Under the pieces are notes generated by a model, which saw only the letters and a program-made list of their open reading frames with translations, had not been told where the DNA came from and ran no database searches. Shown here piece after piece: positions 1 to 64,000 of a stretch of DNA of 64,000 nt. Position 1 is the first letter of the stretch, and every line of letters begins with the position of its first letter. Source of the stretch: Asterochloris sp. CNOR1 (Eukaryota; Chlorophyta; Trebouxiophyceae; Trebouxiales; Trebouxiaceae). A program made the position numbers and the translations under genes. The stretch covers positions 434,001 through 498,000 of the forward strand of contig OZ017763.1 in NCBI GenBank assembly GCA_963969365.1, written 5' to 3'.

Positions 1-32
1 GTCATGCGCTCCTGAAGGCCCATTGCGCCATC

Positions 33-3000
33 TCAGAAAGCATGGAAGCTCATGAGGGGGTCCTCTCTCTTGCGGCCCCTGCCTCTTCCCCTCCCACGAC
101 CCCTTCCCCGCCGGCCGCCGCGCCCTGCCCGCTTCACAAAGGCTTTCCCGTGCTTCACCTACAGCCACAGGCTGGACACGTCAAGCCCATAGGCTTGCTG
201 AAGGGACCCAGGTCAAGGTCATGCCCGACCGCAGCTATGTGCCTGTTGGCATGCCGTATGGCAGCAGCATGGCACAGGCCAGCCCAGCGTACCTGATCCC
301 CAAGTCAGCACAAAAGCAGCAGACATGGGGTTGGAAATCAACAAAGTGAGGATGAACCAAGTCCTGCTGTTGGGCAATACCAATGCTGGCCAAAAGGGCT
401 GCTGCCCACTGCCTCAACTCGCCACTCTGCAGCAACACACTCTGTGCCTGCCAGTGGCTGCCAGGCTGCCCCTGGCTGCCACTGCCGCAACCACAGGGCG
501 CGAGTGCGGAGGCAGCTGACTGCTGAGCTCCGGCCTGTCCCCCTCACCTCACAGAGCGGTTGCAGGAGGCTGCTGCACACCACGCAGCCGACATGGTGCG
601 TCTCCCCGTCTGGCAGGGGGGATGCCCCTTTCTTGAAGTCCAGCACCAACAAACTTGAGCTGCACTCCTGCACAAAGAGGTATGCAGGGTGACTGCCAGT
701 AAACAACAGCTGGAGCCCAGCCTGAGGCTGCACTCCCTGTATGTGCAGGAAGGCAGGGCAGCTGGCACCACTCTGCACTGGGTGACAGTAGGTTTTGTAA
801 CCTGCTGCTGGGGGCAGCCACTTCAAGGCAACACCAGCAATTGATCTGAGACAGCGTGCCACATGGCATTGCATGCCACGCGAGCAAGTGTGATGGAAGT
901 TCAGCTTGTCTTGAGCATAGGTCAGACAGTTACAGAGCTGCCGTGCAGCACTCAAGCCCCTCCCAGCGGTCAAACTGTGACACAGCTCAATGAAAGCAGC
1001 CTGCACTGGCTCCACCAATACCTCGCATGTCTGCTTGCTGGATACTTTGGCACTGTGTAGGTCCTTCGGCAGGTAGATGAGGAAGCTGCAGTGGTTGCAA
1101 TCCAACCGCCACTTTGGCGCAGACACAGGGTCCAGCACCAGCATCCCCTCATCGCACTCTGGGCAGGACGACACCTGTGCAGCAGAGCCAGCAGAGCTAC
1201 AGCCCGCAGGTGGCGGCATACAGCATATCAACAGCCAGAACAGCTGTTTTGGGAGCTCCCCAGGCGGTCACCCAGAGCTCAGCAGACAACAGGGAGGCAG
1301 TGTACAAACCGCCACGGCTGCAACAGAGCAGCGCTCACCCCTTGTTTGAGCATGCTGTGCCTGCACACAGGGTGAGGGCACTGTGTGCAGGGCATGCCAG
1401 CCTTGCCCTCCCCACCAGCCTGCAGGGCAGTCCCATGCATGGATTCAGGACAGGTGAGCAAGCAAGGGTAAGTGAGGAGAGCGCAGTGAGGGTCTGCAGA
1501 GAAGCAGCTGCCAGCAAGGGGCCCAGGCATGGGGCTCGCTACAAGGAAAGCAAAGGGGCATGCTGGCTGGCCAGCTGCATAGACTGGGAACCCGGTGCAG
1601 GTAGACAGTCTTTGTGATGGAGGGGCACCATGGCAGAAGGACGGCCTTCCTGCCCAGAAGCCCTTTCAGGCATTGGGCGCACTGGCTGCAGTACACATGA
1701 GGCACATGAAGACATTGGAGGCTGTGCTGCAGGTGGGGTGCACAGCTGCTTTTGAACTACTGCCTGGCCCTTCGTGAACCCACCTTGACATTCTCAAAGG
1801 GTGGCTGGTTGAAACAGAAAGGGCCTGCAGGCAGGCAGCACTGTCTGCGCTGCCCATGCGCACTCCAGGAACTATGGCACCTGAGGACAGCACTCATGCA
1901 CTACTTGCACAAAGGCACAGCACCTAGGCAAAGCAATTGATGCTTCACTCACAGAACTGCAGTGCACCTGAGCAAAGAGGAATTTGCACCACTGGCAGAG
2001 AGGCACATGCAGCACTCACAGAAGGGGTAGGTCTTGCCATCTGCTCCGCCTGTCAAAGAGAACAGGAGGAGCTCATAGTTGTCCAGTGGGCAGACCAACC
2101 CTTTGTACAGCTTCACTGTTCCACCCTACAGAAGGCAGACAGGTGGCGTTTCACATTACTTCATTGACGTGTTGGCAGTGGGAGCCCGCTATGTAGCACA
2201 TGCGTGCAGAGATGAGCCTATTTGTCGTCTGCTCAGAGCTTCTGCCAGCATGGGGGCACCTGCTTGAAATAGGCAGGGTGAACTCACAATGAGCAGTTGG
2301 CATGCAGCTCTGTGGGTCCGCACGCCCCACATAAGGCTGAGTCCCACACAACCTTGAAAAAATCCACAGCAAGCTGAGGTGGCTGCCAGCAAGGCCTACC
2401 TGTGGAACCGCCAGTACCTCCTCGCATGAGGGACAGTACAGGCGAGATGGCCGCGCAGCAATGAATTTCAGGTAGCGGCTGCATTTGCCACACTTGCTCA
2501 TGACTTTGCCTGCAAGAGTGATGCTGTGGTTACCTAGATTGAGCTGGACAGCAATGGGGCCATTGAGTCTGAGTGTCACTTGAACGCCAGTCAGTTTTGA
2601 GTTCATCATAGCGCACAGCTGGTCATCAACGACTCAGTAGCCTAAAGGTATGACGCTGAGATTCATCCAGATGTCCTAAAACATCAGGCTTGTACTGCTG
2701 GTGAAGCAGCTGATCAGCGCACCAGCCAGGCAGCTGCAACGGTCTGTGGCAGAGTATGGCCTTGCACAATGCGAGCACGCACCACAGCACAAGGATGCGC
2801 ATCCCTCAGCACAGCTTCCAAGCATCTTTCTGGTCAGCCTCATCAACCCCACAGCAGCTCTCATGTGAAGAGGCGAGAGGGCAGAGTGGCTACTGACAGA
2901 GCGATGTTACGTGTAGGTCTGAAGGGTCACACCACCACTGTCACAGCAGCTCTCACCTGAGAGAGCGAGAAAGGCTGGAAATGGCCCCTAGTGGGCGGTA

Positions 3001-6000
3001 CATGCACGTGATATACAGGCCACAGCACCCGCACCACAGCAGCTCTCACCTGATGATGCCAGAGGAGAGAAGCTGGCCTCAAACAGGGCATCCATGCGCT
3101 GGATGTTGTTCACGAAGAACATGAACTTCTGCCTGAACTGGTCCAGCGTGTGCACGACCACAGAGTCCTTGTCAGCCTGGCCCTTGGCCACCAGGCCAAT
3201 CTGCTGCTCTACATGGCTGCGCACCTGCAGCAGGACAGTGAACAGCAAAGTCAGACTGCCAAGGGGCTCTTCCAGAACATTGTCTGGCGCACAGCATGGG
3301 TGTGCAGGAGCCCCACGCAGGGCTGGTGCCTCTGCTCACCTGAGGCTGGCAGAGCTCTGGATCGATGAGCTGGTAGCCTCTTACAAGAGTGATGCCCAGC
3401 TCTGTGGGCACTACTCGCCTGCCACCCTGGATGGAGACGTAGTTCCTCTCACAAATGTTGTTGATGTGGACCGGGATGGAGGCATCTGCAGCAGCATGGG
3501 CATAAGTTCTGCAGCGCCTGTGCAGCAGACCAAGGTCCACTGACGTGAATGGACGCAGAGGGTTTGGAGGCAGCATTGCAGCTGCTCAGATGACCCCAAA
3601 CAGCCGGTAGCCTTGATGGCATTTGGCTGCAGCAAGGGGTGCACAGCCTGCAGCTAGGACCTCAGACAAGAAGCAGGCAGCAAGGAGGGACTGGCCTTAT
3701 GCAACAGCACTGCTGACTGACCAGCTGGCAGGGTGGACAAGCAGTCTGGACAGCTAGCTCTTGAGTTGCATGCTCACCCTTTACAAGCACAGCAGCTCAC
3801 CTGTGCCGATTCCGTGCTTCTCCATGAGCCCAATCAGCTCTGACTCAGTCAGGTAGTCAGGAGGGCTGGTCTTGCCCTGCAGGGCTTGCAGACACATGCT
3901 CAGAAGCCAGCTTGAGCGAACAGGCAGTGAATCTAGCTACTCTCAATACGCCTGCACAAGGGCGCTGGCCCGCTGGCCATTTGGACCTCGATGACATTGT
4001 GATCTTCAGCTTTGATAGCTTGAATCTGCTGCGGTCGCGACACTGCAATGTAGCTCACCTGGTGCAGCTCTACCTCAGCAAGAGGCAGCACCTGCAGCAG
4101 ACCACCACAAAGTGTATGTTGGCTGGATGCAAAGCCACACAAGGTAAAGCAGCATGAGGCCGTGGAGAATTTGGGGGCATGCCTCTGAGCCCTTTGAGTG
4201 CAGCAGCTTTATCCAATTGGCAAAGCTGCTCACCTCTCCCTCTGCCAGTGGAGGCAGCGGTGCACCCTCAACAGCCTGCATAAGCCAGTAGCAGCACTCT
4301 GAGCGCAAAGTCAATATCTGGTTCAAGAGCCAGAGAGTGGCCAGCAGAGCAAGTACCATGCAGGTGCAGCATCAATTGCTGCACAGGGACGCAGTCACCT
4401 GCAGTGCCAAGTGTAGGTGGGCCCAGGAGCGCAGGTAGTAAAGGCCGGCTGGACCCAACAAGATTGGCCAAACTTTTGAATAATAGGAGTTGGGAGTGAA
4501 AGTCACCCAGCAACAGCCCACTGGCTCACCCTCCACGGCATGACTGCTGTGAAGCCGGGGCGCAAAGCCTGTGTGCCTGTGCAGGTGAAGGTCTCACCCC
4601 CACAGGTCAGAGTGGCCTTTGTTCTCCTGAAGACGCAGTCTGGACTGATGGAGCCCAGGAAGTGCCTCACCACATAGTCATAGATGCGCCAGCTGTCACC
4701 TGCATGGAGACAAAAGGCTGACACCCCAGATTGCGCCCAACTAGCATTGGGACTTACATGCTACCAGATCCATGTGGCCTGTGGCCACAGGTCCACAGAG
4801 TGCGGGCAGGCGCACCTGCCTTCAGATAGAGTGAAGTCGCTCCTGACTATGCTGAGAAAAGGGACTAGGGTGCCAAATCAAAACTCACCAGGAATGTCAG
4901 CCTCGGTGGCTGCAGCCACTGGCGTGATAGGTGGATGGTCTCCAACGTCGCTGCCTCCCTGCACTTCAGCAAAGACCTGAAGCATTCAGGCCTCATGCCA
5001 GCATGGCAGTATGCCGGGCAATCCCACAGGCTGCCTTGGCCAGGCTTGGCTACTACAGCGGCTTGGGGCAGAACAGCAGGCAGCTGCAAATTTGCTTGCT
5101 GGCTGCCTCAGCAGGATAGTATGGCTGTGTTGTCTTCAGGACTTTGAAAAGCTCACTTCAGCAATGGCCATGACATTTGCCCACAGGTGACCATTGTTGT
5201 GGTGGGTTCAGAGGAGCGTGTTCGTCATGAACACCAAGGCAGCAAGAAGAGCTTACCTTGGGGGTTGTAAAACCCTCGCTCAGGAGCGCCCCTGCATACT
5301 GCCCCCAGATGGGATGGCGCCGCTGCTCCACCAGCACCTCTTGGAAGTCAAACCCTTGAGGGTAAGCAGAGCTCTCAGTCCTGCAGTCCAGTGAGCCTGC
5401 TCAGACCAGAGAGCAGCATTGGGCAGAGCCAAATGCTTGAAAGCAGCAGTGATGATGCAGGGACTAGGGCTGACACGATTTGCTCTCTGCATAGCATCGT
5501 GTCAGAATGAGGTGCACACAGGGGCACTGGGCATGGGACAGGGCACAATGCAGTGCATCAGCGGCCTTGCAGCCCAGCCTCGAGATGCTGCGCTTTTTCC
5601 AGCTCGGGGTTAGGGCGCCTTTTGCCTACCTGGGGTAGCTGAGGTAGCCTGAGGTGTACAGACGCTCTGCCAGCTGCACACAGGGACGCATATAGTCATG
5701 ATGCTGGTGCGAGTGCACTTCAACTCAATAGAGCACAGCAAGCAGCTGGCCCCCATGCGTAAGCAGTGCGGGCACATGGCCTGACTGGGCATGTGACAGC
5801 AGAAGACAACTGCATCTGATGCCGAGCACGAGTTGTCCTTCTAGCAGTGGCCCTGTGGATGCATGTCATGCAGGTTTGCGGTCCGTGGTGCAAGGCGCTT
5901 CTTGAACAGAGGCATGTAGCTTGCAGGGGAATTAGATGTGCCTGTGGGTGAACCAATAGATGTGTAGAACCAAATGCTTGCCAGAGAACTGCTGCTGACC

Positions 6001-9000
6001 CATGTGCAGGACCCCAGCCCAGGCATGACAATGCAACTGTGAGAAGCCCACATGTCAGGAGCCCGCATGGCAGCAGCCATGTCAGACTGGAAGCTGAGTC
6101 CTGAGCGGCCTGCAAGTCAGAAGCTGTCGCTGATCTTCATGCTCTGCACATGACAGATACCCAGCAACAATGAAGCTGCTTTGACTAGTGTGCAGCAGAG
6201 CCTGGCAGGCACAGGCAGGGCCTGGAGTCGTCCTGAGCAGCCTGCACATCAGCAATTGCTGCTGACCTGCATTGCATGTGCGGGGCCTAACCCCAGAGAT
6301 GATGATGCAATCTTGAGGAGCTCCACCGTGTTCAGGCCATGGGGACGCTGCCGCCGATCCTCTTTCTCTGTCACGCTGACAACCTGCACCACAAGAGACA
6401 TGCTTGGTACCAACAGGCAGGGCTGTTATGGCATCAGCTCAGTCGCATGTTCTCAAGCAGCCCAGCAGCCTCAACATTGGCGCATCACACTGACAAGCTG
6501 GTTCAAGAGACATCAAGTAGGCCACAGGGACTTCCAGCCATGTGAAAGGTTGGCTGCCACACAGCAGGATTCCATACCGGCACATCATACACCCTTGCCC
6601 CGCCAAATTGGGAGGGGAGTTGTGACGATTTGACCTGGTCTGCTGCTCCTACAGCACACTGAGCAATGCTCATCTCAGCCCAGCCGTCCTGTGCCTCTCT
6701 AGACTGCTTTGAGCTGCAGCATGTCATGGCTTGCTGCCCATGCAGCAGCACTCCCGGACTTTGCTGAGCAATGCCCACATCAGATGCAGTAGGAAACACT
6801 CCACCACTGCATTGTTGTCCCATGACCAGGTTCACCCTGCCTTGCCGCGCTTCCAAAACACCGTACTGACACAGCTGGGGAGTGCCCCACCTGTAGCCTT
6901 GCATCCCCCCAACATGCCCTCATGGTCACCCCAGCCTGCCGCCTGTCCAGCACCACTTTCCCAGACAGCTGGTCAGCATCACTGGACCACCTCACATCCA
7001 GCCAACACGTTTATGTCAACGCGGTCCCAGCCTCACCTTGGCATGCCGACCATCCAGCACCACCTTCTGGAACAGCTGGGCAATGCCCACATCAAACAGC
7101 CTGCCCCGCTCCCACTCCAGGTCCAAGGGCTGGCCAGCCTTCTTCAGGTGGGGCCGCACCACCCAGAAGGGCTCAGGTTGAAAGCCCTGCAAGCACGGGC
7201 ACTCAGCTTCAGCGCTGCTGGAAAACAGCTCGCCTTCGGGTGGGCTACCCATGAGAGCTTTGGCTGGAAGCTCTGCACAGCGCGGGCCTCTCGTGTAAGC
7301 TTCTCTTTGTGATGTGGTCAGTGTTTATGAGGAGGCAGTATGACCCAGTGGCGATCCGGCTGGAAGCCATGCACTGCATCTCTGTTCTTGGTCTCCACCA
7401 CATGGCTCACCTGTATTTTCTGACACAGCAACAATCCAGCTGGAAGCCATGCACTGCATCTCTGTTCTTGGTCTCCGCCACCTGCCTCACCTGTATCTTC
7501 TGATGGCGCTCCACGGTGAAGTAGAGCGTGGGAGTCTGGCAGGGGCCGTAGCTTACAACAGAGGCATCCAAGTTGCCATACTTTCCCTGCAGCAGCAGGG
7601 CTGCGAGTAGACGCCATGCACAGCCCTGCACTCTGTGATGATCAAGGCACCCTCAGGCAGCAGCCAATGTGACTCAGAGTCATGTAGGCCGCACTCAGGC
7701 AACAGCCAGGCTAGACAGGGCTTTCAAAGAGAGATAAGGCGGCTGAGCATGCTGCACCCCACAAGCTGCTTACCCGCCCTCATTTCTGGCACGTAAGGCA
7801 AGGTAAACCCTGGAAATAGCAATTTTGATATTCGTAGTTGCACACAACCGCCATGCAGACACAATGCGCTGTTGAGCTTGCCTGCACCAAACAGGGGCAT
7901 ATACAGAGCCAGGCGGCAGCTGGCAGGAACAGGAAACAAGCTGATGTCCTGCAGACCTGAAAGTACCGCGTTTGGTAGCGGGTGAAGGCCACGCCGACCT
8001 TCAGGTCCAGCTCCTGCCGTGCATCCACTGCCAGAGCTTCGTTCTTGTTGGGCTCCCCCAGGTTGGCCTGCACTACGGCATGCAGTCTCAGTGGCATGGC
8101 ACACCGACTAGACCTGTCTGCAGAGCTCTTTTCAGCTTGACTGCACAGACAGAGGCAGGTTCAGGGGGTTCTTTGCGCCCCACAGGCAGTTTGCAGTTTG
8201 GAGAACAGCAGCACAGTCAGAGAGACTCACCATGGCTCCCCGGATGCCTGGGGCAGTGATGGCTGAGAAGCGTGCCCTGAAAACCTGCTGCCGGTCCACT
8301 TTCCTCATCCACTTCACGGTGTTCTCCATCACCTGCAGCATCATGTTTGGTTCTCTCAAGAAGTATTCAAACAGGCTGCTTGGTAAGAACTGGAGCAACC
8401 ATCTTCCCAGAGGTTGCAGCAGGGTCACATAAGGTGGCAGACAAGCCTGGAACGTCCAGCCTGAGTCCTGGCTGAGACGCAGCCAGAAGGCAGGCCGCAG
8501 CATGTGAACATGATCATTTTGGTGCCCACCATCCAGCATGCCCAATGCATGCCATGGGTTCAGCCGTGGTCAAAATTCTTAACTCCCTGACCAGTGAGAC
8601 TACCCAAGAGTCCAGAGCAACCAGAGCCACAGCCCTTACCTCAAAGCAGATGTTTTCCCCTTCGCGATCACAGTCCAGCCACAGCACCAGATAGTCACAG
8701 CCCTTGGCCTCGCTTTGCAGGTGTCGGCACACATGCGCCTGCAAGTCAGCACGCAGCAGTTGTCATGTTTTGGGCAGGGTGTGAATGCACAAGCAGATGA
8801 TCAAGCAGGTGCTGGCAAGCAGAGGCATGCAAACCAGCACAGCAGGTGGCCATGTGGTGATCAGTCAGACAAGGTCTCATGACACTACACTGGTGGTTAG
8901 ATTGCTGCTGGCGGAAGGGACGCTGGCTACTACCCGTGCAGTGCTATGCAGCGGCAGTTCTGCAAATCCGTCCAGGCTCTTGCATTGCAACAGGCAGTGG

Positions 9001-10256: not shown

Positions 10257-13200
10257 ATGACCGAGGGACATGTGCATGCTAACGGGGAGCTCTGCGGCAG
10301 AATGCACAGCCACGATCAGGGCAGGCCTCCCACCATCACCAATGCTGGAGGCCCTGCTGGCACATCAAATGTGGGAACAGGAGGCATGCCAGAAAGACCT
10401 TCTACAACACATATGGCGCAAAGCGATGCAAGTCAGATGGCACTTGGTGAATCAGACGCAGAGCAGGCAGCAAGGGAGGAACGTGAGGCGCTTGGCAAGT
10501 GAGCTCTGCCATGATGAGGCATTGGGCGATCTTGTCAGCCTGGAGGCTATGCTGCACATGCCTGAGTGGGCCTTCTTCCTGCCAAGCATGTGCTTGCAGA
10601 GCTCACTTTCAGCTCTCCTGTTCCCACACTGGGCGTCACTGGAATTCACTGTACGCTGAAAAGCATGAAAGGTGCTTCGGGACACTTGCCTGACCCAGGG
10701 GCCCCTGCCGTGCTGATGCTGGGGGAGCACAAAGCAAGCAAGGCAGAGCTCAAAGTGATGTAAGACCCTCACAGAGAAGGGTTCTGTCTGCAGGATTGCG
10801 CATGCTTTCCGAGGGTACAAGACAGACGCAGACTGGGAAGTGACACGATGGGAGTCCAACTATCTGCGCCTGACTCAGCGGCACAAGTGAGTCCTGCCAT
10901 CTCAGCAACATGAGCCCACTGCTGAATAACAGGTGCAACATGCCTGCAGTGCAGCACAGATGTGTTTCGCAGGCCGACGTGCACCCTGCCGGGTTTCCAA
11001 TTGCCCTTCTTAGAAGAACATGCTTATAAGGCCCTGACTTGGGCAAATTTTCCTAGAGATGCTGTATGGCGTAGCTTGCAAAGGCATGAGCGAGCATGGA
11101 CCCTGTCCTGCCAGAGGGGTAGTCTCGCGATAGCATCCACTGGCGATTGCAACTGGCTAGGGGTTTCACCCTATGGGCGGGCTGGAGCCCAGGCATACCG
11201 CAGGCGTGCTGTCAAACAAGCAAGCACCTGCTCCTGTTTCTGCCGCAGCAGTGACCTGCCTGAAGCTGCCTAGTGCCTACTAGTTCCTGGTAGGCACCAT
11301 TGCCGAGTTGTGCTGCTGGAAAGGCGGCTGCTGCATCCCCAGAGGAGATTGCTGCATCCCCATGGCCGCTGCATCCGCATGGAGGCTGCTGCATCCTCAG
11401 AGGAGGCTGCTGCATCCCCACCGGCTGCTGCATCCCCACAGAGGCTGCTGCATCCTCATGGAGGCTGCAGCCTGAAGGGAGCCAGCAAGTGCATGTCCAG
11501 CAGGGACTCTTGCCAAACTGAAGTGTCACAGAAGTGGATTGGTTGAGTTGGTCTCCCTGGCCAGATGGTCAGTGGCCTGCCTTCCAGCGGCAAAGTAACA
11601 GCTCCCCATACTGCAGAGCATTTGCAAGCCACGCTGTCTGATCGCATGTCTGCACGTGGCTGCCTGAGCAGCCGGTCTAGCATGCTTTTGCAGAGGAGAT
11701 GGCTGCTGACAAGTCTCACCCTGTGCATGCCTGCTCACGGGGATCCTGTTTGCCATGAATGTGGGGCAGCTTGCACAGCATCTACCTGCCGGCAACGTGG
11801 GACAAGCCAAGCATTGCATGTCACCCTGTGCACACCTCGCACATGCCCTGCCTGCAGACGGCTGGTGCCCAAGCAGCCGGCAAAGCTGAAGGCGGCACGG
11901 GAAGCCATCCAGAGCAACCACCTCTTCTTCAAAAGCATGCTGGGCTCATTTGACGATGATGGGCGCACCCCAGAACACCTGTCAGTGGCCAATGCAGCGG
12001 CCAGCGAATGGGGCCAGGCGCATCCTGAGGTTCACCCAGGAGACATCGAGAAAGTCAGGTGGGCACAGCTGCTGGGCGGGAAGCTGCTTGCAAACCACAT
12101 GTGTGGCCGGTCTTTTGAGCATGTTGACTGTGTGGCAGACGCTGTGGCCGGCAAGAGGTGACAGGCACATGCTGATGTGCAAGTGGGGACGCTGAGAAGA
12201 TTAGGTGGGCATAAGGTTCTCGCGTGGGAGCTGCCTGACCCTTGGCGAGTGGGGCAGGGCACACCCAGAGGTGCACGCTGGAGTTATGGAGACTGTCAGA
12301 GGGGCAGAGCTGCTTAGCAGGAGAGCCGCTCAGAACCCTGCCTGTTGGTGACAGATGAAATTGCAGGTGAGTGAGGCCAGGAGCACCCACAGGTGCATCC
12401 CAGCGAGACACTCCGGTGTGAAAGACGATTGGCTACATCTACTCTGCAGCAATGCAGGCAACACCCCCAATGCCTCCCTTTGTTGTGCACCATGTACAAG
12501 TACATGCTCAGGAGCCTCGAAGAGGATTGATCGGCAAGCAGAGCCCCAGAGGTGCAGCCAACCTCACAGCACAGCAGCAGGTCTGACTACTGCACCCGTC
12601 CGAACCACTTCTGCCCCACCTGCAGGTATGTGCTGAAAAACCTGATGAGAGACTGGTCAGCCGATGGCGCCCCCGAGCGCACGCAGTCCTATGGGCGCAT
12701 CATCAAGGAGCTCTCCAAGCGCTACGAGGGGTGGCAGGACCCACAGCATCCGCCCAGGGTACTGGTGCCCGGTGAGTCACGTCACTTCCCCCGCACAGCA
12801 GGATCAGAGGCAGCCGAGGTGCCGCACAAGGTTCAGGGATCCTGCTGTCTGCATGCTGGAGTGCTGCCAGGGGTTGGTGGGACCCTCAAAATCCCCCTTG
12901 AGCCAGGAGGAGCCCTGCAGGGCTTTGTCAGGGAGGCTGCAAGAGTGATACGACCTCGCAGTCTCCCCAGGGATGGCAGAGCCATCTCGCAGGCTTCAGG
13001 CCGCCACCATGAGCACCTTTGTTTTGGGGGCATGATGGGTTGTCATACTGGCGCCCGTTCCTGGATCGAGCATGCCCCCCAAGATCACGGTGCAACAGCG
13101 CTCGAGCACAGGGCAGCCAGCCCAACAAGCCAAAGGTGCCACGCCTTCTCCCACACCCCCTTGCTTGTAGGGCCTGGGCTTGGGCATCTAAACCCCACAC

Positions 13201-15318
13201 TGCATGCTGCTGGCCCTAAGTGCTTACAGAGTGGTCTGACTTGCTTGTGGATGTGATCTGCACCCCTCCTGTGTGCAGGGGCTGGCCTTGGACGTTTGTG
13301 CCTGGAGGTGGCTTCTCTGGGCCTGGAGGCCCAGGGAAACGAGTTTTCATACTACATGCTGCTGGCCTCCAGCTTTGTGCTGAACCAGTCCGCCCGCGCA
13401 GGGCAGTGGACCGTCTTCCCCTGGCTGCACACCAACTGCAACCAGCGCTGCATCGGGGACCAACTGAGAGGGGTAAGTGGTGTGACTGTTTCTGGGCACC
13501 CCCGCCACAACCCACCACAGACCCTAGACCCTGAAGCTGCATACCAGCATTGCATGGGGGCCTCTGGAGAGGGGTGAGCCTGAGTGTGCTCCTCTGCAGC
13601 AGGAGACGTGCTTGAGCCAGCTGCAAGTTTGGCCCCTTACCCCCTCCGGGCAGGTCAGTCCACCACAAGGGAAACTCGCATGCCTGCATCCTGCGGCCAC
13701 ATGAGCTCATTGCAAAGCCCCTCATTGGCTGAACATCAGGGGTCAAAAGACATGCTGCTGGCTGGCCAACTATGCCATCATTCTTCCTGTCTTATGATGC
13801 TGTGTATGTGGATGTGTATAGCTTCTATCGCATTGCTGGTCTGATGCCTATCAGCATTCAGCAGGTGCGTCATGCCATGCTGTTCAAACTCCCTCCATTA
13901 CAGCTCCTGAGGATTCCTGAAAGTTGCCTGTGAATCCCTTCCACTGCCCTGCAGGTTGCAGTGCACATATGCTGCGCCAGCTGGCCTGTTGCCTAGTTGC
14001 GCCTGTGGTTATGAGGAGATCTGCGCTCCGCTGAGTCCTCTCCTGCCTGCTGCAGATCTGTGTGCTTGGCATGCTTCCAGCAGACATGCATTCTGCTGTC
14101 CAGATGCCTGGCAGATATGCGAAGGTCTCTATCACACTCAGTCCTCTTCTGTTCTCTGCAGGTTTCTGTGCTTGTCACGCTCCCAGCAGACCCCTGCCCA
14201 ATCGAGCCTGCAATTTGAGAAGGTCTGCATCACACTCAGCCCTCTCCCCTCCCCTACAGATCTCTCTGCTGGGAGCACCCTGCCCAATCGAGGCCGCAAT
14301 CTGTGGAGGTCCACACCACACTCAGCCCTCTTGAATCCCCTGCAGGTGTCAGTGCCCGATGTGCTCCCAGCAGACATGCTGCGCCAGCCCGGCCTGCTGT
14401 CGATGTGTGCCGGCGACTTTGTGGAGGTCTACAAAGCCCCAGAGCACGCGGGCGATTTTGATTGCGTGGCCACTTGCTTCTTCATCGACACAGCCCACAA
14501 CATACTGGAATACATGGACGTCATCTGGCATGTCCTCAAGGTGGGGTCAGCACCCAACTGTGGACTCAATGCAAGTGTACCCACTCTCAGCCTGAGCAGT
14601 GGTGTCAAGACTTCCTGGCCTCCTGTGGCCCTGACAAGTAGTAGTTGCGCTGTTACCTTTGACTGGCGGGGGCCAATCAGATTGACTAAAGCAGCACTGC
14701 ATGTGACTGCAACTTGAACAGGCGCTGTGCAACAATTGGTCCAGGGTGTGGTACAGCGTAGGTCCAGTGGCGTCTCTTGACATGCCCACTTCATCACAGT
14801 GCCCTATGTGAGCGGATGGCGCCTGCCGTGTCGAGCATGACTTGATGCAGCAGGCCTTTCTCCCCCTGTTAGGCGTCTGACAATGCAGCAATGCTCTCCA
14901 TGGATCATCAAGGATCATCCTTGCTGGGCTGCTGCAGGAGGGTGGCTTGTGGATCAACCTGGGGCCTTTGCTGTACCACTGGGCAGATGCACACACCTAC
15001 CTGCCAGAGGGGGAGCTCTCCATTGAGCTGTCTCTGGAGGAGGTGGAGGCTGCAGCTGCTCAGATAGGGTTCAAGACCCTGCACCGTGAAATTGTGCCAT
15101 CCGCGTACATGGCCAACCTCAAGTAAGCAACACTTTACTTGCACCTGTCTGTCAAGCAGCTCCAGGTGTTGTGGCTGGCAGGCACCTTTGAATGCCAATC
15201 TGTCACGCATGTAGGCAGTCAAGTCACGCATGCGAGCATGTGAATCTGATGCAGGTCTATGCTGAAGTCCTCCTACAACTGCGCTTTTTGGACCATGACC
15301 AAACCAGCTGCAGCCTGA
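10257..15318 (+). CDS. CARNMT1: Carnosine N-methyltransferase (N2227 family)
   Basis: SAM-dependent methyltransferase homologous to CARNMT1, which methylates the histidine ring of carnosine in animals. The algal substrate is unknown. Eight exons join in frame: 10257-10498, 10794-10886, 11858-12058, 12626-12771, 13279-13472, 14346-14540, 14938-15122 and 15255-15318. They give 1320 nt, 439 aa, against roughly 410 in human. Features in order are a poorly conserved N-terminus of about 80 residues, [35 protein letters not shown], the SAM loop VLVPGAGLGRL, the family signature [29 protein letters not shown], and [14 protein letters not shown] followed by ELSIELS. The protein ends [15 protein letters not shown]. 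The first ATG in the exon 1 frame was chosen, so the start is less certain than the rest. Introns 2 and 5 are long and hold tandem repeats. Confidence 0.95.
11325..11470. repeat. Intronic minisatellite (GAGGCTGCTGCATCC units)
   Basis: Within CARNMT1 intron 2 a unit of about 15-20 bases resembling GAGGCTGCTGCATCCCCA repeats about eight times with small changes. It lies between exons (10886 and 11858), so it is not coding in the assembled model. Confidence 0.85.
13950..14395 (+). repeat. CARNMT1: Array of copied 3' splice site plus exon head, CARNMT1 intron 5
   Basis: The real exon head at 14346 (GTGTCAGTGCCCGATGTG, then CTCCCAGCAGACATGCTG) is preceded by four decayed copies. Each follows its own CAG or AG, at 13955, 14056, 14162 and 14260. 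Spacings are 101, 106, 98 and 86. The sequence between units is shared too: GGTCTSYAYCACACTCAGYC occurs upstream of the 14162, 14260 and 14346 heads. The real exon is the last unit of the array. Confidence 0.85.
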
Positions 15319-15775: not shown

Positions 15776-18700
15776 TCATCTGCGTCCGCCAACCTTGGGC
15801 CGGGTTTTCACCTCTGCGTCCTGGGGGTTGTGCAGCAAGACATAGTTCTTCATCGTGGCAGGGTTGTACTTGGCATGCCCTTCAGTCCAATCATAGCTGG
15901 CAGCATAGGCATATACCGCCCCGTCCCGGTTGTATTTGCCACACGGAATGGGAAGGTTTCCCCTTGTCATGGCCTTCAGCCTCTGCTTGGAGTCCTTGTC
16001 CCAAAAATTGTAGCTACCATCTGAGCCCGCAGTGACAAAGGTGCCAAACTGGGGGTGGAAGTCAATGTTGTTGACCGAGTACACGTCAGCGCCATCCCTG
16101 TGGCACTTGAAGGTAAAATTTTTGCTCTGCTGAGCATCGTCCACATGCTGCACTGCCACCCGCCCCTCAATGGAGCCCACCTGCGGCAGCATGGAAGGCC
16201 TTACATTGCAGGCAGTGATGCTTTGCATGCAACATGGCTCCACAGCTGCAGAGCCGCCTGTGTTCTACAGAGGCCACCAGTGTGCTGGGGTTCGGAAGCA
16301 GCCATTCCAGGAAGTCTGGCTGATCAGCTCTCCGACGTGTAACAGAGCCGAGCTGCAGCTCAGCCAGGTTTGCCAGGCGCCCAAGTGCCGTTGCAAAGAC
16401 AACACCGGAGCTGCCACCCTGGCCTCAGGGGGCCCCACTTGCACCAAAGAAAGCTCACTTGGTGGACACAATGTAAGCCGTCTGCCTCAAGGAGCAGACT
16501 AGTCAGAGCACGTCTGCACTGCGGCGCATAGACCAGCAGGCCTGCAGCGCTGCCTCTGCCATGCTCTGTCGGCTTCTGATGTGACCTTTGCACAAACACG
16601 CAGTGACCCACCATGTAGCCAGTGGAGTCTGGGAAGCAGGTGATGCACCGTGTCTGGTACTTCAGTGGCGACTCGATGTCCTTGAACACCTGCTGGGGGG
16701 CCTGCATGTTGAAGACCTGCAGCACACAGGATGTGAAGCAATGTCAACACAGAGTCAGCCCGCAAAATAGGGCGGAAAAGCCTCTGTTGCAGTGTCGTCA
16801 ACATGTACCAGCCTGCCGAAGGTTACTAGCAGCTGGGGGAAAAGGGCATTTGCTGATGACTTGCAGCCACAGCACAGTCGATGCGTCTTCCATGTCCACT
16901 GCCCAACCCTTCCTCCATCGGCATCTGGTGTGTTGGCCTTGGCTGCCTGTCAGAGAGTACCATTCAGTTATTCGAGCCAGCACCAGGCCAATCTAGAACG
17001 TTCACCTCGAACGGAGCCCACCCGCCCCTGCACAGCCCAGCCCTGTGCAGCCCTGTGTCTCACCTGGATGTGGCGGTTGGCCAGCCCCGCCACCAGCAGG
17101 TTGTTCTTCACATCCATCGCATATACCCTCTCCTGCATGCCCTGCTGGTGCATCGGCTGCGGCTGCCTCATGTCCCAGTATCGCAGCGTCTTGTCCCAGC
17201 TGGCGGTGCACAGGATGGGCTGCTGGTTGATATGCACCACGGCGCAGTGCCTGCAGCAGCAGGCAAGGGCAGTTGATGGTGGCCACTGCGCACTGTGTTG
17301 TCCCAGCTGAATGTGCACAGACTGGGCTGTTGGTTGTGTGCACGACGGCAGTCCCTGCAGCAGCAGGGTGGTAGCAATCAGTTGCAGCTTGTGCATGGTG
17401 ATATCTGGCAAACCCTACTTTGGATCCAGCACGCAGTTCATAGTGAGCAGTGCAGCATCAACCTGGCGCATGCAGTTCAAGAAAAGCAGTGCAGCATTGA
17501 CCTGGCTTTCCTGTGACTGCCTGCGTTTCAGTCACGTTTTGCACAACAGCTCAACTCGTAACACAACCATTTCCCTCGCCAAAACGGGGAGCCTGCACCT
17601 GGCCAAGCGTGCTGCACATTAGCTCAGGAGCACCCTGCAACTGACCTGACAGGGCCATCGTGGCGCCCCACGGTGCTCTGCTGGTTGCTCCCCAGGTCCC
17701 ACAACTTCACTTCATTGTCACAGCCTGTAGGCAGACACCACCTGATGAGCACATCTGCTGTGAAGTCACCGCAGCACGGTGTTCGCAGGCTCCCAAAACC
17801 TCTTTGCCTCATGGTTGCAGCCAGCAGGCAGGGGCACTGTGCACTCAGATAAGATGTGGGGTCAGTGAGGGGGCACTGCAGCATGCTTTGCAGTCTGTGG
17901 CTTTTGCCATGATGGCTGCACAGTGCTTGGCAGGTCCTGCAGCTTCACCTCAAACCTGCATTGCTCAAGCAGGAAGAAGTCCTAACAGACACTACATTTG
18001 TGGTGTTGCCCTCAGCATGCTCCATGCTGGCGTTGCAGCAAGTGCTGAAGAGTATGCGAGGCAGGGACTGAGCTGGTCTGCACCTGCTGGGGCTGCCCTC
18101 TCAGCTGTCAGCCCTGGTGCTGCACAACATTGGATGCTGGTGTGGTGGGGAGATCAGCAATGCCAGGGAGTGTCCTCACGGTCAGCGGGGCTGTTTGTGG
18201 ACGAACAGTAGGCCAGCAGGCAAATGTGCCTGTATGAACCCACACGACCCGCCCAACACCTGCTAAGATCATGTTTTGAGCCTATGGTGAGCCATACACC
18301 GTGCAGTGTTGACACCCGATGCATGAAACAAATCCTAGACGTCAGAATCGCCGGAGTCAACTTGAGCTCACCTGCCGAGACCACCTTTTGGCCATCAGGG
18401 AGCCAGGCGCTGCACAGCACGGGCTGCTGGTGGGTGACGCCGGCCATGTACGAGCTCTGCGCCGGGGTGGTCATGGCACCAGGCTGTACATTGTAGCAGC
18501 GGACGTGGTTGTCCCATGATGTCACAATCAGGTAGTTGGCTAGGGGGCTCCAGCTGAGACTGCTGATGCCGTCAACTGCAGGCAGGGTAAAGAAGGGTGG
18601 GGGTGTGAACAGGGCGGAGGAGATGGTGTGCTTGCTGAAGCAGGCAGGCCCAAGCAATGCAAGGTACGGGCTGAGACTGCTGACAGCGTTTGACTGCAGG

Positions 18701-34000: not shown

Positions 34001-37000
34001 TCAAGCGTGCCAGACCTCTGTGGTCCTAGCTCAATAATTTTTCTGCCTGCAGGGGCTCCTGAGCTCTGCAGGCGTGCTGGCCTATCTGAACGGTCACCTC
34101 CATGGCGCCTTTGGCAAGCAGCTGCACCGTATGCACAAGGCAGGGCCAGCAGGTGACTGCTGTGCTGCCTGAGCTGCAAATGTCCCATCGGCCTGCCCTT
34201 ACCTCAGGAGCGTGGTTGTGGGAGCAGTGCAAGCAAGTAGCTGCACCACATGCATCAGGGAGGCCCGTAGTGCTGACGCACTTATTTTGGCCACACCCGC
34301 AAAACCTTACATACGTGAGCAGCAGAGGTGACCATCAGTGACCTGGGCATGAGCTCTGCCAGGTGCTGCCTGGATGCAGTCGTCACGTTTAGGCAGATAT
34401 GGTTGTGACATGGTACAGGGGTGGCATGCCAATTGCAACGTCTTCTGGTGGTGAAGACTGTGTGATGTAGCCCAGTCAATTTCAAGATGTACAGCCCACT
34501 GGAAGTCACACTCTTTGCTGGAGGGTGCAGACTGGACACACCTTGAAAGGTTAAGGATTGTCACAGCTGGGATCTGGGCTCAGAGCCACAACATCTGACT
34601 GAAACCCTGCCGCCACGTGCACGCCCCCTGTTGGAGGTCGAGGGCGCAGCCAGTAAGGACCAAAGGAGGCTCAGGGCTGCTGCACTAACACCACTCATGT
34701 GATTGCCCTGCAGGCCAAGTTCTGGGACTCAAAGCCTGCAGCTTTAGGGTGCAGCCTGGTGAGAGCAGAGGAGATCCAGAGCTCCTGAGCAGACACCGGT
34801 GATGTGCTCTGCTGCAGGTCACCAGTAATGCGCTCTGCTTGCAGGTCACCTGTCTGCTTACAGGACCTTTTCTTGCAGGTCACCAGTATTGTTCTCTGCT
34901 TGCAGGTTACCTGCTGGAGCTTGAGGCTGCAGCCTGGAAGGACCAGAGGAGGTTCAGAGTGGCAGCTGTGGACCAGGGCAGGCTTGCCTTTGCAGATCTG
35001 CACCTTGTCACCCCCAGCCGCCCAAGCACGCAGATGGGGAACCTGACAGCAGGCCAGATCGGCATTTCTGGGGTGCACACTGAAGTCAAAGGTCAGCACC
35101 TCTGGGGCATATTGCCTGCTGAGATGCTTGATGTGCATGGTGGGCTGCACGAAGACATGCCTGGCCACCCCCAGCTGCCCAGGTGTGCAGCTGGGAGATC
35201 TGGCAGCAGAGCAACATTGGGGTCTTTGGGTGCACTCTGCAGTCCAGGGTTGGTGAGGCTGTTCAGGACTCCAGGCTGCTTGTGAACGATGCCAAGCCTG
35301 CTTCACCAGCATAGCACTGACATTTGAGGATGGCTTTTTGTAGGGCCTAAATGGTCGGAATGGTGCATGCCCAACTGCTGTGCTGTTCCACATAAGCATG
35401 GCACCCCAGCATGCATGCCTTCAGGTCTCGCATCTCATTTGTGGTGGGGGGATAGTGAGGCGGCCTTCTTGCGTTGACCTTGTGCTATGTCCCCTGAAGC
35501 GCCCTGACATGGCATCTGGCGTCACTGCCTACAGTCAGCAGCCATGTGGTGCTCCTGACCAGCCCCACAGACGCCCGCTTCAGCCAGCTGGGTGCAGGCT
35601 CGCTGCGCCAGCAGTATCCAGACATCAGGGCGCTGGTGAGCCGTCACCGCACGCCAGTCCAAGCTCACCGGCTGGTACTGCTGCCCTGCAAGCCCAGTCA
35701 TCCTGGCACCCCCAGGCTTAGGCAGCCTGTCTGTGTCACCAGTGCCACCTGACAGCTGCGCCTTTGCGGACATGCTGCTGCCCATGTTTGGCATCGACTG
35801 GAACTGGATTACATGCCAGCTGTGCCTGCCAGCTGGTGTCCTCCAGCGGCCTTGTCTGCAGCTCACACTCCTGTTCCAGCCTGCAGGCGCTGCCAGTGGA
35901 GCTGGATGGGAAACAGGGACCTGCAGTTGTCAAGGTGAGTCTCCTTGCGGAGGGCTGTCTATGCAAGGCGGCACACATGGTCGCCACAGCTGCAGCCTGG
36001 GAGATGCTTGCAGCTGTGCAGCCACTGTAAGGGCTGGACATCTTTGCCTTTGCTGCAGTCAAGGTGGGCCTGCTGGTTGACAGCTGGCAGCACATGGCGG
36101 CACTGCTGCTGCCGCTAGGGTCCCCATTTTAGGGCTTACTGCCTGCGTCAGGTCCTGAAGGTCTTTGCTATTGCTGCAGCCTGCTGCATTCTGAACTCCA
36201 TCTTGGATGATTGGAGTTGCGTCCCCGCAGTGTTACAAGCCAGATCTCAGATGCAGCGACAGCCACTGTTGTAGGCAGCTGCAGCATGCTCATGCTACCT
36301 TGCACCTGACCCTTCGTGGCCCCCAACTGTGCAGGCCTGGATCCAGTGGCAGTGCCAAACTGGAGCACAGCGGGGCGCAAAGGCGCTGACGCCTGCTGAC
36401 GGCAGCGGTCGCCTCTTTGAAGCAGCATGGGACCCAGCCATCTCCTGTGGCCCAGCAGCGCAGGGCGGCATGCAGCACATCAGCTTGCAGGTGACCCATA
36501 GCATTGGTCAGGGCTGCAGGAATTGTATGCAGGGTGCAGGCAGAGCTCTCAGCCATCGCCTGAGCACATGAGCTGCCCAGCTCATGTGCTTGTTGCGGGC
36601 ACACATGTCAGGGAATAACTCGACCTCCAGAGCAGCTTTACCTGCATCAGGGTGCACACTGTGTGGTCAAGCACAGCGTGCACCCTGCTGCAGGTGAACA
36701 TCGAGGGTTCTGACAGAGCGCCCAGCCACGGCATCACAGATAACCACTAATCATATCTGCCCAAAACAGCCAAGCTTACAGCATCCAGTCTTGCTGCCTG
36801 CAATCATGCGGCACCCTTGGCTGCCTGCCTGCTGCAGGTGCATGTCCTGGATGCACATGGCCACGAGAGCAGCTCCCAGACCTATCAGGTCACGCTCCTG
36901 TTGGAGCAGGGGCGCTCAGTGCCAACAGACCCTGCCCAACCCTTGCCCCTGCAGCTGTCCAGGCTGGAGCGCTTCACTCTGTGGAACAACTGGCCCCGCT

Positions 37001-53776: not shown

Positions 53777-54217
53777 AAATGTTCCAGAGATATTCACTCC
53801 ACAGACACTAAGCACCAGCATTTGACAAATAAGCATTTGGCTGCTATTCTGTTGCTTTTTAGAACTCACAGCAGTTTTGCAAAGACATAATGTAAGCACG
53901 CCTGTAAACCCTGTCAGACATGTAGACTAGTGTATGGACATGTTGTTAGGCAAAGTTCGAGATCATTGCATCCATCCAAGCTATGCTGCAGTTGCTGAAA
54001 ATCTTTTGGTGGTCCTACACCATCCTTGTGTACCTGGTCAAACTCAGCCAACCTGCAGCCTGTACTACTGTTATCACATCACAAACAATAGGTGAGAACT
54101 TGTCTGCAGTGTGATGTTTCCCAGCATCATTTGTGCCTGCTGCAGGAGAGCCAGACATACTGTGATTGAGGTCATTGGTAGCCTGTTGCAGGGTTGGCTG
54201 GGCCTCAAAAGCGCAAC
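53777..54217. other. Spacer between members C and D
   Basis: About 440 bases between two same-strand paralogues, presumably the 3' UTR of C and the promoter of D. The left part is AT-rich. No repeat or gene is recognised. Confidence 0.4.
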
Positions 54218-60900: not shown

Positions 60901-61846
60901 GAGGCCCTCATTGTACAGGAGCCTGCCTGGCAGCTGCATAGGCAGGCAAAGACAGACTCAATGCAGAGTGCTTGTACTCTAATGCAGCCTTACAGGCAGC
61001 CAGATTGGCAGAGAATGTAACATGCAAGTCCTGCCCGACACAGCTCACTGGAAGACTTGGTGCCCAACGCAGAACATGATGAGCACAGCCAATCAGGCGT
61101 ACTTGGCATTGTACTTGAGTTGTATTCTCAGGTTTCCTGGATTTACACCAGCCTTGCTGAATGGACAAGGGCATTCAAACATGAAGGACTGTATCATGTA
61201 CCAATGTCGGCCTCTAGGTGCACCCGATCACAAGCAGCAATGGGGGCAAGGGACAGCTGTAGATGTCTTTAGCAGTGCCTCCCTCACACAGTATCGCTGC
61301 CTGCCTCAGTTCATGGATGGCAGTGGCGTTGCTCAGGCCCTGCAGTAGGAGCTGTTAAACTAGTAAGGGCAAGCCAACCCAGTCATCACCTGGCATGGCT
61401 GAGATAGGCGTGCAAACCCCAACAGTTGGTGTCAGTAACCCAGCCTGTTTACTGAACTCTTGCAGATGCACAGGATTGCCAGGCTGCAAGGGAACACATG
61501 TCCGGTGGTTGGCCTGACTCATGCTCTACAGACATGAGCACAATGCTCAGAGCATTCTGCCAAAGCTCTACCTGCAGGGCCTGAACGCAGTCAATGAGGG
61601 CAGCTTCAGGCAGGCAGGCAGGCAGGCACGCATGCAGGCACAGGGCAGCTGTGCCTCTGGGATGTCCAGATTGTGCATGATGCCAGGTACCGGCATACAG
61701 GTTGCTGAGCCTGCATATCATGCCCTCTAGCACCTGCAGAACCTGAAGATGGCCGGCATCAAAAAAGCTGATGGACTTGCGAGGCTCAGCGAAGACTCCT
61801 TCACTTTCTGACTTTCCTAGGAAGCACAATCTAGCAGCTCTCCCTC
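60901..61846. other. Spacer between member D and RTF1
   Basis: About 950 bases on the same strand as both neighbours, containing the 3' UTR of member D and the RTF1 promoter. A GGCA tetranucleotide run lies at 61607-61628. Nothing else is supported. Confidence 0.45.
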
Positions 61847-64000
61847 ATGTCTTCCAACTCAGATGCGGAGATCAGTGACTACGAGGATGAGGCTCAAGCA
61901 AGGAAGCGCAGCAGGCCATCTGAAAGCGATGAGGTGCACCATGCAGCCTCAGCCTGCATGTTGGCTTGAACTGTACCCTTTCATGTCTTTGCACCTGAGA
62001 GTAGATTGTGACACAGAAGCACAAAGTACGCCGGCTTGTCGCCTAAGTAGACGTCCTTGTTGCGCAGGAGCTGTCTGATGAGCAGGAGGCACCTGCCAGG
62101 GCAGCCAAGCGGCCCAAAGCAGGCAAGGCAGCTGCCAAACGAAAGGGAGGCTCTGCAGCAGCAGAGGAAGAGGACTGGGCCAACTTTGTGTTCGAAGGAT
62201 ATGGGAAAGACTTGTACAAGTGAGGCAGCTGGCTGAATCTGACTGCATGCTGGCCTGGGCATGGGAGCTTGTGCTTATGTGTCAAGTTGCTGGTACATTG
62301 CACCTGCAGCGCAGCATTGTGCAATGAGGAGTAGGCTTTCCGGGTATGCTGCATTTTCATGCTCAAAGTGGTGCAATGACTGCTAGCTGGCACTGCTCCT
62401 TGCCTGGACTGCAACTGTGGCGTGCAGCACCCAGCAAGCCATTCTGAGCCAAAACATCTTGCCTCGTCTTCTTGCCTTGCCAGACAACCATTGGATCTAG
62501 GCCAGGACCTCTGCCTATCTGCTGTGATACACAGCAGCATCACCATCTGCAGGTCTTGGCTGTCAAAGGCCCTGCAGGATGCACAGGAGAGCTGCAGCAC
62601 TGAGCCAATTGCCACAGAGCTTCATGCGCGCAGGACCTGCTGTCAGAGCTGGAGCCTGGCAGTTCCTCTCAGGCTGTCACTGATCGCCACACGCAAATGC
62701 ACTTCAGGGATGACAATGATAGGGAGGCACTGGAGGCCATGAATGAGCTGGACAGGGAGATGGAGCTCATGGAGCGAGCTGACAGGCGAGATGCAGCCAT
62801 TCAGCGAGCCAAGGCACTCAGGCAGCAGGAGCAGCAGGAAAAGGCAAAGGCCAAGGAGGTGTGCAGGGGAGGATGGCTGCAGTGTGGAGTAGGCTTTCAG
62901 TGTTGCATTATATGTTGGGCATGAGGGCGCGCTCCAGCCATTCAGCCAGACGAGATCCTGAGGCCGCACAGCAGAGGACGGCCAAAGCCTCACTGCTGCG
63001 CAGTGCAGGGACTCTTCGATATGGCTCGCTTTGGCTTGCTTCAATTCAGCACCTTATTTTGCAGCTCAATTAAGCCAAAGTGGAGCCTCACCTATCAGCT
63101 TACCCACACCCTGCTACAATTCAGCACCACTTTGCAAGCCGGGCAACCTGAAAATTTTGCAAGCAGGCAGAGCGCCTGGCTGGCAACTTGGGGGCGCCTA
63201 CCTCCCGACTCACAGCATTCTTACCACTATGCTGTAGAAAATCGCCTCGCAAAGCAGTGCTGGCAGGGGGCGATGTGCACCAGACAAGCAGGCTGAATGC
63301 GTGCGTGCAGCACCTTGGCCAACCAAATTTCATCTGCATCTGTTGGCGTGCAAAGCGACAGGCGATGCTTAACAACAGGCTGAGGAGCAGCAGGCTGGGA
63401 GCCTAAGTGCGCGCCCCGCGGCAGGTGTTCTCACGAGACCCAATTTCCGACATGCAGCACAAGGGACAGACACAGCTGTGGCCGGCCTGGCTGGAGTCAA
63501 GAGCGCACTGCTGCAAGCAACACAGGCCAGCATCGACAGCCCGTCTGCCACTGTGCTGCAGGAGAAGGTCACGCAATACAGACATGAAACAGGGAGTCCA
63601 GGATGAAGCGGCAATGCTCCTGGCTGAGAGCCAGCAGCCCGGCACACTCTCTGCGCAACAAAGCAAAGGCTTCCTGCCTCTCTGGTGCAGGACAAGGTCA
63701 CCCGCCGCAAGGCTGAAAAGGAACAGCGAGCCCAGGATGAGCAGGCTGAGCGCCTGGCTGAGAACATGAGGTCCAGCACCCGCGAGAAGAATGTGAGCCG
63801 CGACAGGAAGAGTGCGGCAGCGGCGCTGAAGGAGGCCACTCAGAAGAAGAAGAAGCAGGCTGCACAGGCTGAGAAGTGAGTGTATGGCTCTCTGAGGAGG
63901 TGGGGTGTTGAGGGCTGTGTATGATCAGGGCGCTCAAGCCAGCACAAGTCGTCAGCCAGAAGTGCTTGTGGAAGAGTGTGCATTGGTGTAAACAGCAAGG
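61847..64000 (+). CDS. RTF1: RNA polymerase-associated protein RTF1, 5' part
   Basis: RTF1 belongs to or associates with the Paf1 complex that travels with RNA polymerase II and promotes H2B ubiquitylation. Exons 61847-61933, 62068-62219, 62708-62858 and 63691-63875 join in frame (575 nt, about 191 codons). The last donor (GTGAGT) leads off the right edge. Visible features are an acidic start MSSNSDAEISDYEDE, a basic Lys/Ala patch, WANFVFEGYGKDLYK (like the family's DGYGEDLMGDE), EALEAMNELDREMELMERADRRD (the TEKEREQELFNRIEKRE helix), and a long Arg/Lys/Glu helix up to KKKKQAAQAEK. The Plus3 domain should lie beyond the window. Exon 4 is preceded by decayed copies. Confidence 0.9.
63155..63780 (+). 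repeat. RTF1: Copied exon segments upstream of RTF1 exon 4
   Basis: The real exon 4 head at 63691 (GGTGCAG, then GACAAGGTCACCCGCCGC) has a copy at 63562 (GCTGCAG, then GAGAAGGTCACGCAATAC), 129 bases upstream. The interior is copied too: GTCCAGGATGAAGCGGC, then CTCCTGGCTGAGAG (about 63597-63632) matches GCCCAGGATGAGCAGGC, then GCCTGGCTGAGAA (63731 on). A further interior fragment, GCAGGCAGAGCGCCTGGCTG, lies at 63163. Confidence 0.85.

Follow-up and report, generated by a model that had tools for sequence, protein, structure and literature searches.

Decayed copies of exon edges and short local duplications in the introns of Asterochloris sp. CNOR1

Exon-edge copies at the locus

We analysed a 64,000-nucleotide (nt) stretch of the Asterochloris sp. 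CNOR1 genome (contig OZ017763.1, positions 434,001 to 498,000; hereafter the window), in which the genes for TOP3B, CARNMT1 and RPL9 have introns that hold decayed copies of the adjoining exon edge. We refer to these copies as echoes: a head echo comprises an acceptor and exon start, a tail echo an exon end and donor. The initial annotation had described one to five echoes per edge in seven named genes and had ascribed them to recurrent tandem duplication across splice junctions. Exon-edge echoes are real, and they are general within a 314-kb sample of the genome. They are probably (we put the probability at about 0.78) what remains visible of local duplication that is general and untargeted, and they outlast decay where the exon copy is conserved.

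Since ab initio models break some genes in this genome, key junctions were tested by homology: once spliced, RPL9, CARNMT1 and TOP3B can be aligned with homologues of solved structure. Of seven junctions checked in this way, six (three in TOP3B, two in CARNMT1, one in RPL9) have one to four echoes that score above the best of 500 random introns, a set from which introns of the window were excluded. The echoes and the exon edges to which they correspond are as follows.

2841..3007, minus strand: two TOP3B tail echoes of the exon end ..SPLASSG (2928-3007 and 2841-2902); donor at 3049
6725..6975, minus strand: three TOP3B tail echoes of ..HAKV (6910-6975, 6826-6885 and 6725-6774) at offsets 107, 201 and 312
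7037..7086, minus strand: functional TOP3B exon end ..HAKV, donor at 7036, from gene model and homology
7381..7423, minus strand: TOP3B tail echo of ..KIQ (exon end and donor) at offset 80; functional donor at 7490
12009..12058, plus strand: functional CARNMT1 exon end ..DIEKVR, donor at 12059, from homology
12157..12452, plus strand: three CARNMT1 tail echoes of ..EKVR (12157-12234, 12250-12330 and 12372-12452) at offsets 147, 241 and 363
13934..14283, plus strand: CARNMT1 head array of the exon start VSVPD, four upstream copies (13934-14004, 14029-14089, 14133-14209 and 14231-14283); functional exon from 14346
17289..17336, minus strand: RAE1, upstream copy of a putative exon at 17182-17229, offset 107
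28225..28274, minus strand: functional start of RPL9 exon 3 (NLIKG), from the spliced reading against plant uL6
28344..28609, minus strand: three RPL9 head echoes of NLIKG (28344-28407, 28458-28528 and 28556-28609) at offsets 113, 233 and 327
29385..29400, minus strand: possible head echo of RPL9 exon 2 (TLVRD), 16 of 16 identical, offset 86, at chance level
34618..35209, plus strand: TMEM62-like gene, local copies clustered about a junction predicted near 34905, with a tail copy at 35160-35209, from the ab initio model only

The clearest single echo is that of the TOP3B ..KIQ edge, which is identical at 39 of 43 positions and scores 179 against a null maximum of 90. It belongs to an 80-nt two-copy tandem duplication at 7341-7503 (Tandem Repeats Finder period 80, 1.9 copies; high-scoring segment pair (HSP) of 83 nt, 88%), and the sequence of the TOP3B structure reads on across this junction. 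The ..HAKV echoes score 141, 138 and 109 (null maximum 101). Those of ..SPLASSG, up to which the homologue alignment extends, score 133 and 139 (null maximum 99) at HSP distances of 93 and 185; this junction was placed one base off in array scoring and in the splice-motif and pairwise-identity tests. In CARNMT1, the ..EKVR echoes reach 141, 206 and 131 (null maximum 94), and the VSVPD head copies, each with acceptor and exon start, reach 114, 125, 177 and 121 (null maximum 100) at a junction across which the alignment to PDB 5yf0 continues. The spliced reading of RPL9 can be aligned with plant uL6 over its full length, with a single two-residue gap, and its NLIKG echoes score 126, 156 and 121 (null maximum 95). 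The seventh junction, RPL9 TLVRD, has no echo above the null maximum of its 500 random introns: its best match scores 80, with a null 95th percentile of 79 and a maximum of 92.

The other named genes fare less evenly. RAE1 is recognised by alignment and contributes one copy (HSP of 48 nt, 81%); because the alignment lacks 17 residues at the exon in question, the junction beside this copy is a tentative placement and that of the gene model is doubtful. The TMEM62-like gene has a Metallophos match. The ABHD5-like fragment matched Abhydrolase_1 below threshold only, and the single 45-residue fragment of RTF1 tested gave no domain match, which leaves these two names unconfirmed. A search of the window against Rfam gave no match at gathering scores.

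Local direct duplication across the sample

The sample joins the window (C18:434001-498000) to 250 kb from five further chromosomes, and represents 0.56% of a 56.4-Mb genome in 21 contigs. One CYP97-type protein of this genome has its closest named relatives in Trebouxia (80%) and Coccomyxa (77-78%), and GC content and intron richness are similar to those of Asterochloris glomerata (PMC6652019). A hidden-Markov gene finder, purely ab initio and trained on the 314 kb itself, predicted 82 genes with 495 exons and 413 introns. The introns have a median length of 323 nt, with donors of the form GTGAG[C/T] and the acceptor CTGCAG. Some genes were split, among them RPL9, which is broken at the exon that bears the array. 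The predicted introns are rich in CAG (3.9% of positions) and in CTGCAG (0.36%), and acceptor-like hexamers are thus common in them.

We aligned exon edges with their adjoining introns in two ways. In test A, 45-nt edges were compared with 300 nt of intron at a threshold score of 80, and 17 of 137 heads and 11 of 144 tails had a match. Random introns gave 0.33% (heads) and 0.10% (tails), the reverse complement 1.5% and 0.7%, and anchors placed in intron interiors and intergenic DNA 8/222 and 2/91, respectively. With the shorter 36-nt anchors of test B, 35 of 599 exon edges matched, against 0.22% for random introns and 3/599 for the reverse complement. Within the 314 kb, exon-edge copies are in excess over these controls. 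An echo lies at one end or the other of 34 of the 351 introns tested. A catalogue of the best match per junction lists 35 junction-region echoes (14 head and 21 tail; catalogued without a null of their own, and three of them with at most five exon bases), and 24 of these lie outside the window, so the claim that introns hold decayed exon-edge copies extends beyond the locus at which it was made. The claim that the copies hold stops applies to a minority, with in-frame stops inside 6 of 62 ungapped echo matches.

Echoes are one part of a wider pattern of short, local and direct duplication. Exact repeats of 12-mers in the window are 34-122 times as frequent at distances up to 120 nt as at 5-10 kb; inverted 12-mers are at most 11-fold enriched in every distance bin beyond 20 nt, with very small counts. 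Across the sample, ungapped matches with scores of at least 75 yield 292 direct pairs at spacings of 15-300 nt, of which 195 remain after a low-complexity filter. The corresponding numbers are 15 and 7 at 1000-1286 nt, and there are 11 unfiltered pairs at 3000-3286 nt. Only 13 inverted pairs are found at 15-300 nt, against the 195 direct ones. Near pairs thus outnumber distant pairs, and direct orientation prevails. Pair density is flat from 15 to approximately 150 nt, falls to less than half by 200-250 nt and approaches background by 700 nt, and the spacing of mostly 40-130 bases given earlier was too narrow. Density is highest in the window (10.0 per 10 kb, versus 2.6-7.4 in the five other stretches), and 99 of the 413 introns include at least one base of a local pair.

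The initial annotation had placed these duplications at splice junctions. Our data do not assign junctions a special role. As anchors are moved into the exon by 0, 15, 30, 45, 60, 90, 120 and 160 nt, the echo rate falls smoothly from 5.8 through 4.1, 3.1, 1.9, 1.8, 0.6 and 0.4 to 0%, as it would for randomly placed units that extend into the exon. Intron anchors at seven depths have copies at rates of 1.4-3.4%, without a peak at the junction, and intron interiors as a class carry them too (3.4%). After background subtraction, exon edges exceed intron interiors by a factor of 1.98 (confidence interval (CI) 1.25-2.98; 35/599 versus 232/6839). With the exon copy under selection, exon and echo drift apart at about half the rate of two intron copies, so that a ratio of about 2 is expected without any targeting. 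The edge excess therefore equals what conservation predicts, and a ratio interval that reaches 2.98 leaves room for a modest junction preference.

These observations suggest the following process. Stretches of about 20-100 nt would be duplicated repeatedly, in direct orientation and over distances up to about 300 nt, more often in introns than in intergenic DNA. Where a duplicate covers a splice junction and the outer site stays in use, the inner copy of the exon edge would become intronic and decay freely. Selection would keep the functional exon copy, and the exon-echo pair would remain recognisable about twice as long as an intron-intron pair. Serial events at one edge could build arrays with periods near 100 nt. 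For adjacent copies, the copying step may be backward slippage or unequal exchange, and spaced ones may perhaps stem from insertions templated during repair or at forks. Fixation would presumably be neutral.

Copying modes and alternative explanations

The word tandem fits part of the data. Matched length reaches at least 0.8 of the spacing in 12 of 12 pairs at 15-30 nt, in 47% of 30 pairs at 30-60 nt and in 20% of 35 pairs at 60-100 nt, and this share falls to 10% of 42 pairs at 100-150 nt and 0 of 67 at 150-300 nt. Local duplication is present in all six stretches, and a tandem description suits arrays and pairs spaced less than about 60 nt; many pairs at 80-300 nt are instead short copies with unrelated spacer between them. 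Two modes of copying thus contribute, tandem duplication of adjacent units and direct copying across a spacer. Spaced copies could be mostly templated insertions from break repair and not eroded tandems, a possibility that concerns the copying step, is compatible with untargeted local duplication, and seems to us real but somewhat doubtful. In its favour, 18 of 27 pairs with at least 90% identity cover less than 0.6 of their own spacing, several young pairs end abruptly, and median matched length holds steady at 36-44 nt for spacings from 60 to 300 nt. The flanks of partial pairs (spacing of at least 80 nt, n=239) reach a score of 55 in 24% of cases, against 15% in reverse-complement and 9% in distant controls. 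On the other side, some spaced pairs are parts of longer duplications broken by indels (for example, 4431-4633 in the stretch from chromosome C15, judged by eye). Break repair that uses either strand as template is expected to produce inverted copies too, and these are rare here. The direct orientation would thus favour same-strand slippage or fork template switching.

Whether the echoes have a function can be addressed from their mismatches. Exon-echo mismatches at codon positions 1, 2 and 3 number 129/777, 126/774 and 187/777 (16.6, 16.3 and 24.1%; p = 5.5e-5). Between two coding copies, mismatches would be biased far more strongly towards the third position. The mild bias seen here is as expected when one copy is free and one is constrained, and the echoes themselves show little coding constraint. 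That they serve as alternative exons, or as decoy or recursive splice sites, is nevertheless a reading with some points for it: the third-position excess is significant, CAG stands at the acceptor position in 6 of 6 head copies of the RPL9 and CARNMT1 arrays (aligned by eye), and the splice core, with the motif masked, is retained in all four head copies and three of the four tail copies, although eight copies are too few for a conclusion. We regard this reading as very unlikely, given that mismatches are still two thirds as frequent at positions 1 and 2 as at position 3, far from the pattern of ordinary coding constraint, that CAG is very common in these introns, and that the RPL9 reading is complete and the tested CARNMT1 and TOP3B readings are continuous without any echo. 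Chance, compositional artefact or gene-model errors might be suspected where introns are CAG-rich and ab initio models break some genes. We give this next to no credence: for exon edges, random-intron controls are approximately 25-75-fold and reverse-complement controls approximately 8-12-fold lower, distant and inverted pairs are 15-28-fold rarer, and the arrays persist at homology-checked junctions. Repeated units within introns could also recall mobile, introner-like elements. However, the units copy the local exon edge, two arrays (CARNMT1 14010-14340 and RPL9 28290-28640) have no match elsewhere in 56 Mb, in a search that skips simple repeats and very common words, and there is no clear signature of intron gain; this origin is as improbable as artefact.

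More weight attaches to a coupling of duplication to transcription or splicing, for instance through R-loops or stalled forks in introns, which would make introns and junctions preferred sites. Of the results that follow, the intron excess and the junction-spanning excess favour such a coupling, and most weigh against untargeted duplication as we have stated it. Introns hold 0.481 and intergenic DNA 0.275 local pairs per kb (ratio 1.75, CI 1.01-5.42), and 3.4% of intron anchors have a local copy as compared with 1.3% of intergenic ones; a purely random process does not predict this excess. Junction-spanning pairs number 35, where 15.4 (standard deviation 3.9) are expected under shifted annotation, a 2.3-fold excess that contrasts with a merely 1.3-fold one for pairs between exon interior and intron (40 versus 30.9). 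In the same comparison, intron-intron pairs number 79 versus 70.5 expected, intergenic pairs 16 versus 33.9 and exon-exon pairs 11 versus 22.1. The edge-to-intron ratio is uneven among stretches, below 1 in C15 (3/110 versus 37/1246) and about fivefold in C5 (5/91 versus 11/1137), with small counts. In junction-spanning matches, identity on the exon side (0.798) equals that on the intron side (0.801); beyond the match core, the exon side is similar further out (0.60 versus 0.46 for the intron side at 12-17 nt from the junction). Whole-unit tandem duplication, for its part, does not fit most pairs spaced more than 80 nt. The greater similarity of functional edges to echoes than of echoes among themselves (0.72 versus 0.62) adds little, as the intron control gives 0.77 versus 0.71.

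We still consider transcription or splicing coupling unlikely. Intron copies have no peak beside junctions, and the exon-edge ratio equals the conservation prediction, although its interval extends to 2.98. The intergenic set includes promoters, untranslated regions (UTRs) and missed exons, where selection may purge duplications. The intron excess could reflect promoter or UTR constraint, gene-model errors or transcription coupling. A fuller form of the same idea is slightly less likely still: introns would be preferred 1.75 to about 3 times over intergenic DNA and junctions somewhat over interiors, and introns would lengthen themselves by same-orientation edge copies of about 100 bases each. 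Untargeted local duplication remains the reading we prefer. A hub pattern, in which each echo of an array would derive from the functional edge, was evaluated from pairwise identities in four arrays and rejected: it is mostly ascertainment, because the intron-anchor control (13 junctions listed, 12 distinct, one CARNMT1 junction having been entered twice) shows nearly the same pattern.

Possible intron growth, and comparison with known systems

The initial annotation had proposed that such duplications create introns as well as lengthen them. Creation is not borne out. When the donor context of each intron is compared with its acceptor context (the Rogers signature, AG/GT), 2 of 354 introns reach a local alignment score of 80, against 0.49% of random pairs. 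Ungapped scores for 365 introns average 13.42, against 13.54 for random pairs, with two outliers (0.55% versus 0.22%) that may be single cases of intron gain. That introns are lengthened is plausible: the median length is 491 nt for introns with a local pair and 278 nt for those without one, and copied bases make up 2.9% of introns shorter than 150 nt, 1.2% of those of 150-300 nt and about 5% of those above 300 nt.

An unnamed protein family with members in the window is suggestive of intron growth. Its sequence reads VEDRPxVxETVTxIREHHPIEK and continues, past the intron, with EFVVETRPTGRE. Six loci were found, and the intron after ..HHPIEK varies widely in length or is absent:

about 48080-48420, minus strand: window member
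53016-53290, plus strand: window member
58765-59500, plus strand: window member
C5:2946974, C8:230382 and C2:2539314: loci elsewhere in the genome

The intron measures approximately 145, 252 and 593 nt in the window members and 549 nt in locus L035, and L036 continues without an intron. These introns were compared by length only, and as a sign of growth their variation is only suggestive. The pieces of this family tested had no Pfam match. A look-alike of the family occurs in a gene model at window positions 21276-23094. A second unnamed family (..GTHHIxxGHKxGKLVIxL..) has two copies in the window, at 49650-49979 (minus strand) and 54520-54953 (plus strand); the one copy tested had no Pfam match. 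Two further repeats lie in the window: a minisatellite-like array at 11322-11468 with about seven copies of a unit of about 20 nt (GGCTGCTGCATCCCCA..), in a predicted intron (10887-11857) upstream of a CARNMT1 exon, and a perfect 18-nt tandem duplication of two copies at 53715-53750, inside a predicted coding exon (Gly/Thr/Val repeat).

Exon edges may serve as recorders of this process. The preserved copy keeps intron-ward duplications visible about twice as long and identifies the new copy, and so the rate and direction of intron lengthening become measurable from a single genome. Between 75 and 100% identity, each 5% bin contains 9-19 intron-intron pairs, in 164,290 intron bases, which gives a rough rate of 3-4 duplications of at least about 18 nt per 1000 substitutions, an estimate that within-array pairs inflate. 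Decayed copies of acceptor and exon may also mislead gene finders, and the RPL9 model is broken at its array exon. In sum, the exon edge appears to be a useful recorder of intron growth by what looks like ordinary neutral duplication, and not a new system.

Among the published work listed (titles and abstract starts, with most subscription journals outside the scope), no description of exon-edge arrays in introns was found; PMC8469720 deals with other introns. Internal gene and exon duplication (Gao and Lynch, via PMC4974935 and PMC3443670) resembles our case in its tandem copying within genes; there, copies add coding sequence or whole introns, whereas here exon fragments are lost to the intron. 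In fly regulatory DNA, local self-similarity that reaches about 70 bp has been read as pervasive local duplication with decay (PMC3188502). The self-similarity is alike, and it concerns regulatory modules there, not introns or exon edges.

Two further systems are comparable. In the potato RNA-dependent RNA polymerase gene (PMC4974935; reviewed in PMC3443670), a tandem duplication over an intron-exon boundary provides copies of the splice signals. It spans intron end and exon start, as head echoes do. A new intron arose in potato, whereas in Asterochloris the second copy remains within the old intron and the AG/GT signature is near random. Vertebrate repair-mediated duplications (PMC2671141), and the short local 'doublets' of Thomas et al. 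cited there, likewise copy short segments nearby, adjacent or spaced, and an exon can be copied, together with its splice sites, into a neighbouring intron. Proximal vertebrate copies average 162 bp, with an average donor-acceptor distance of 1.2 kb, and their density, obtained by a different method, is 0.52-0.65 (primates) and 0.18-0.26 (other mammals) per Mb of transposon sequence. In Asterochloris, matched copies are about 40 nt long, lie within 300 nt and occur at 15 direct to 1 inverted, with 195 pairs in 314 kb. As these accounts from potato, vertebrates and flies record, duplication in tandem over an intron-exon boundary and short local duplications are already published.

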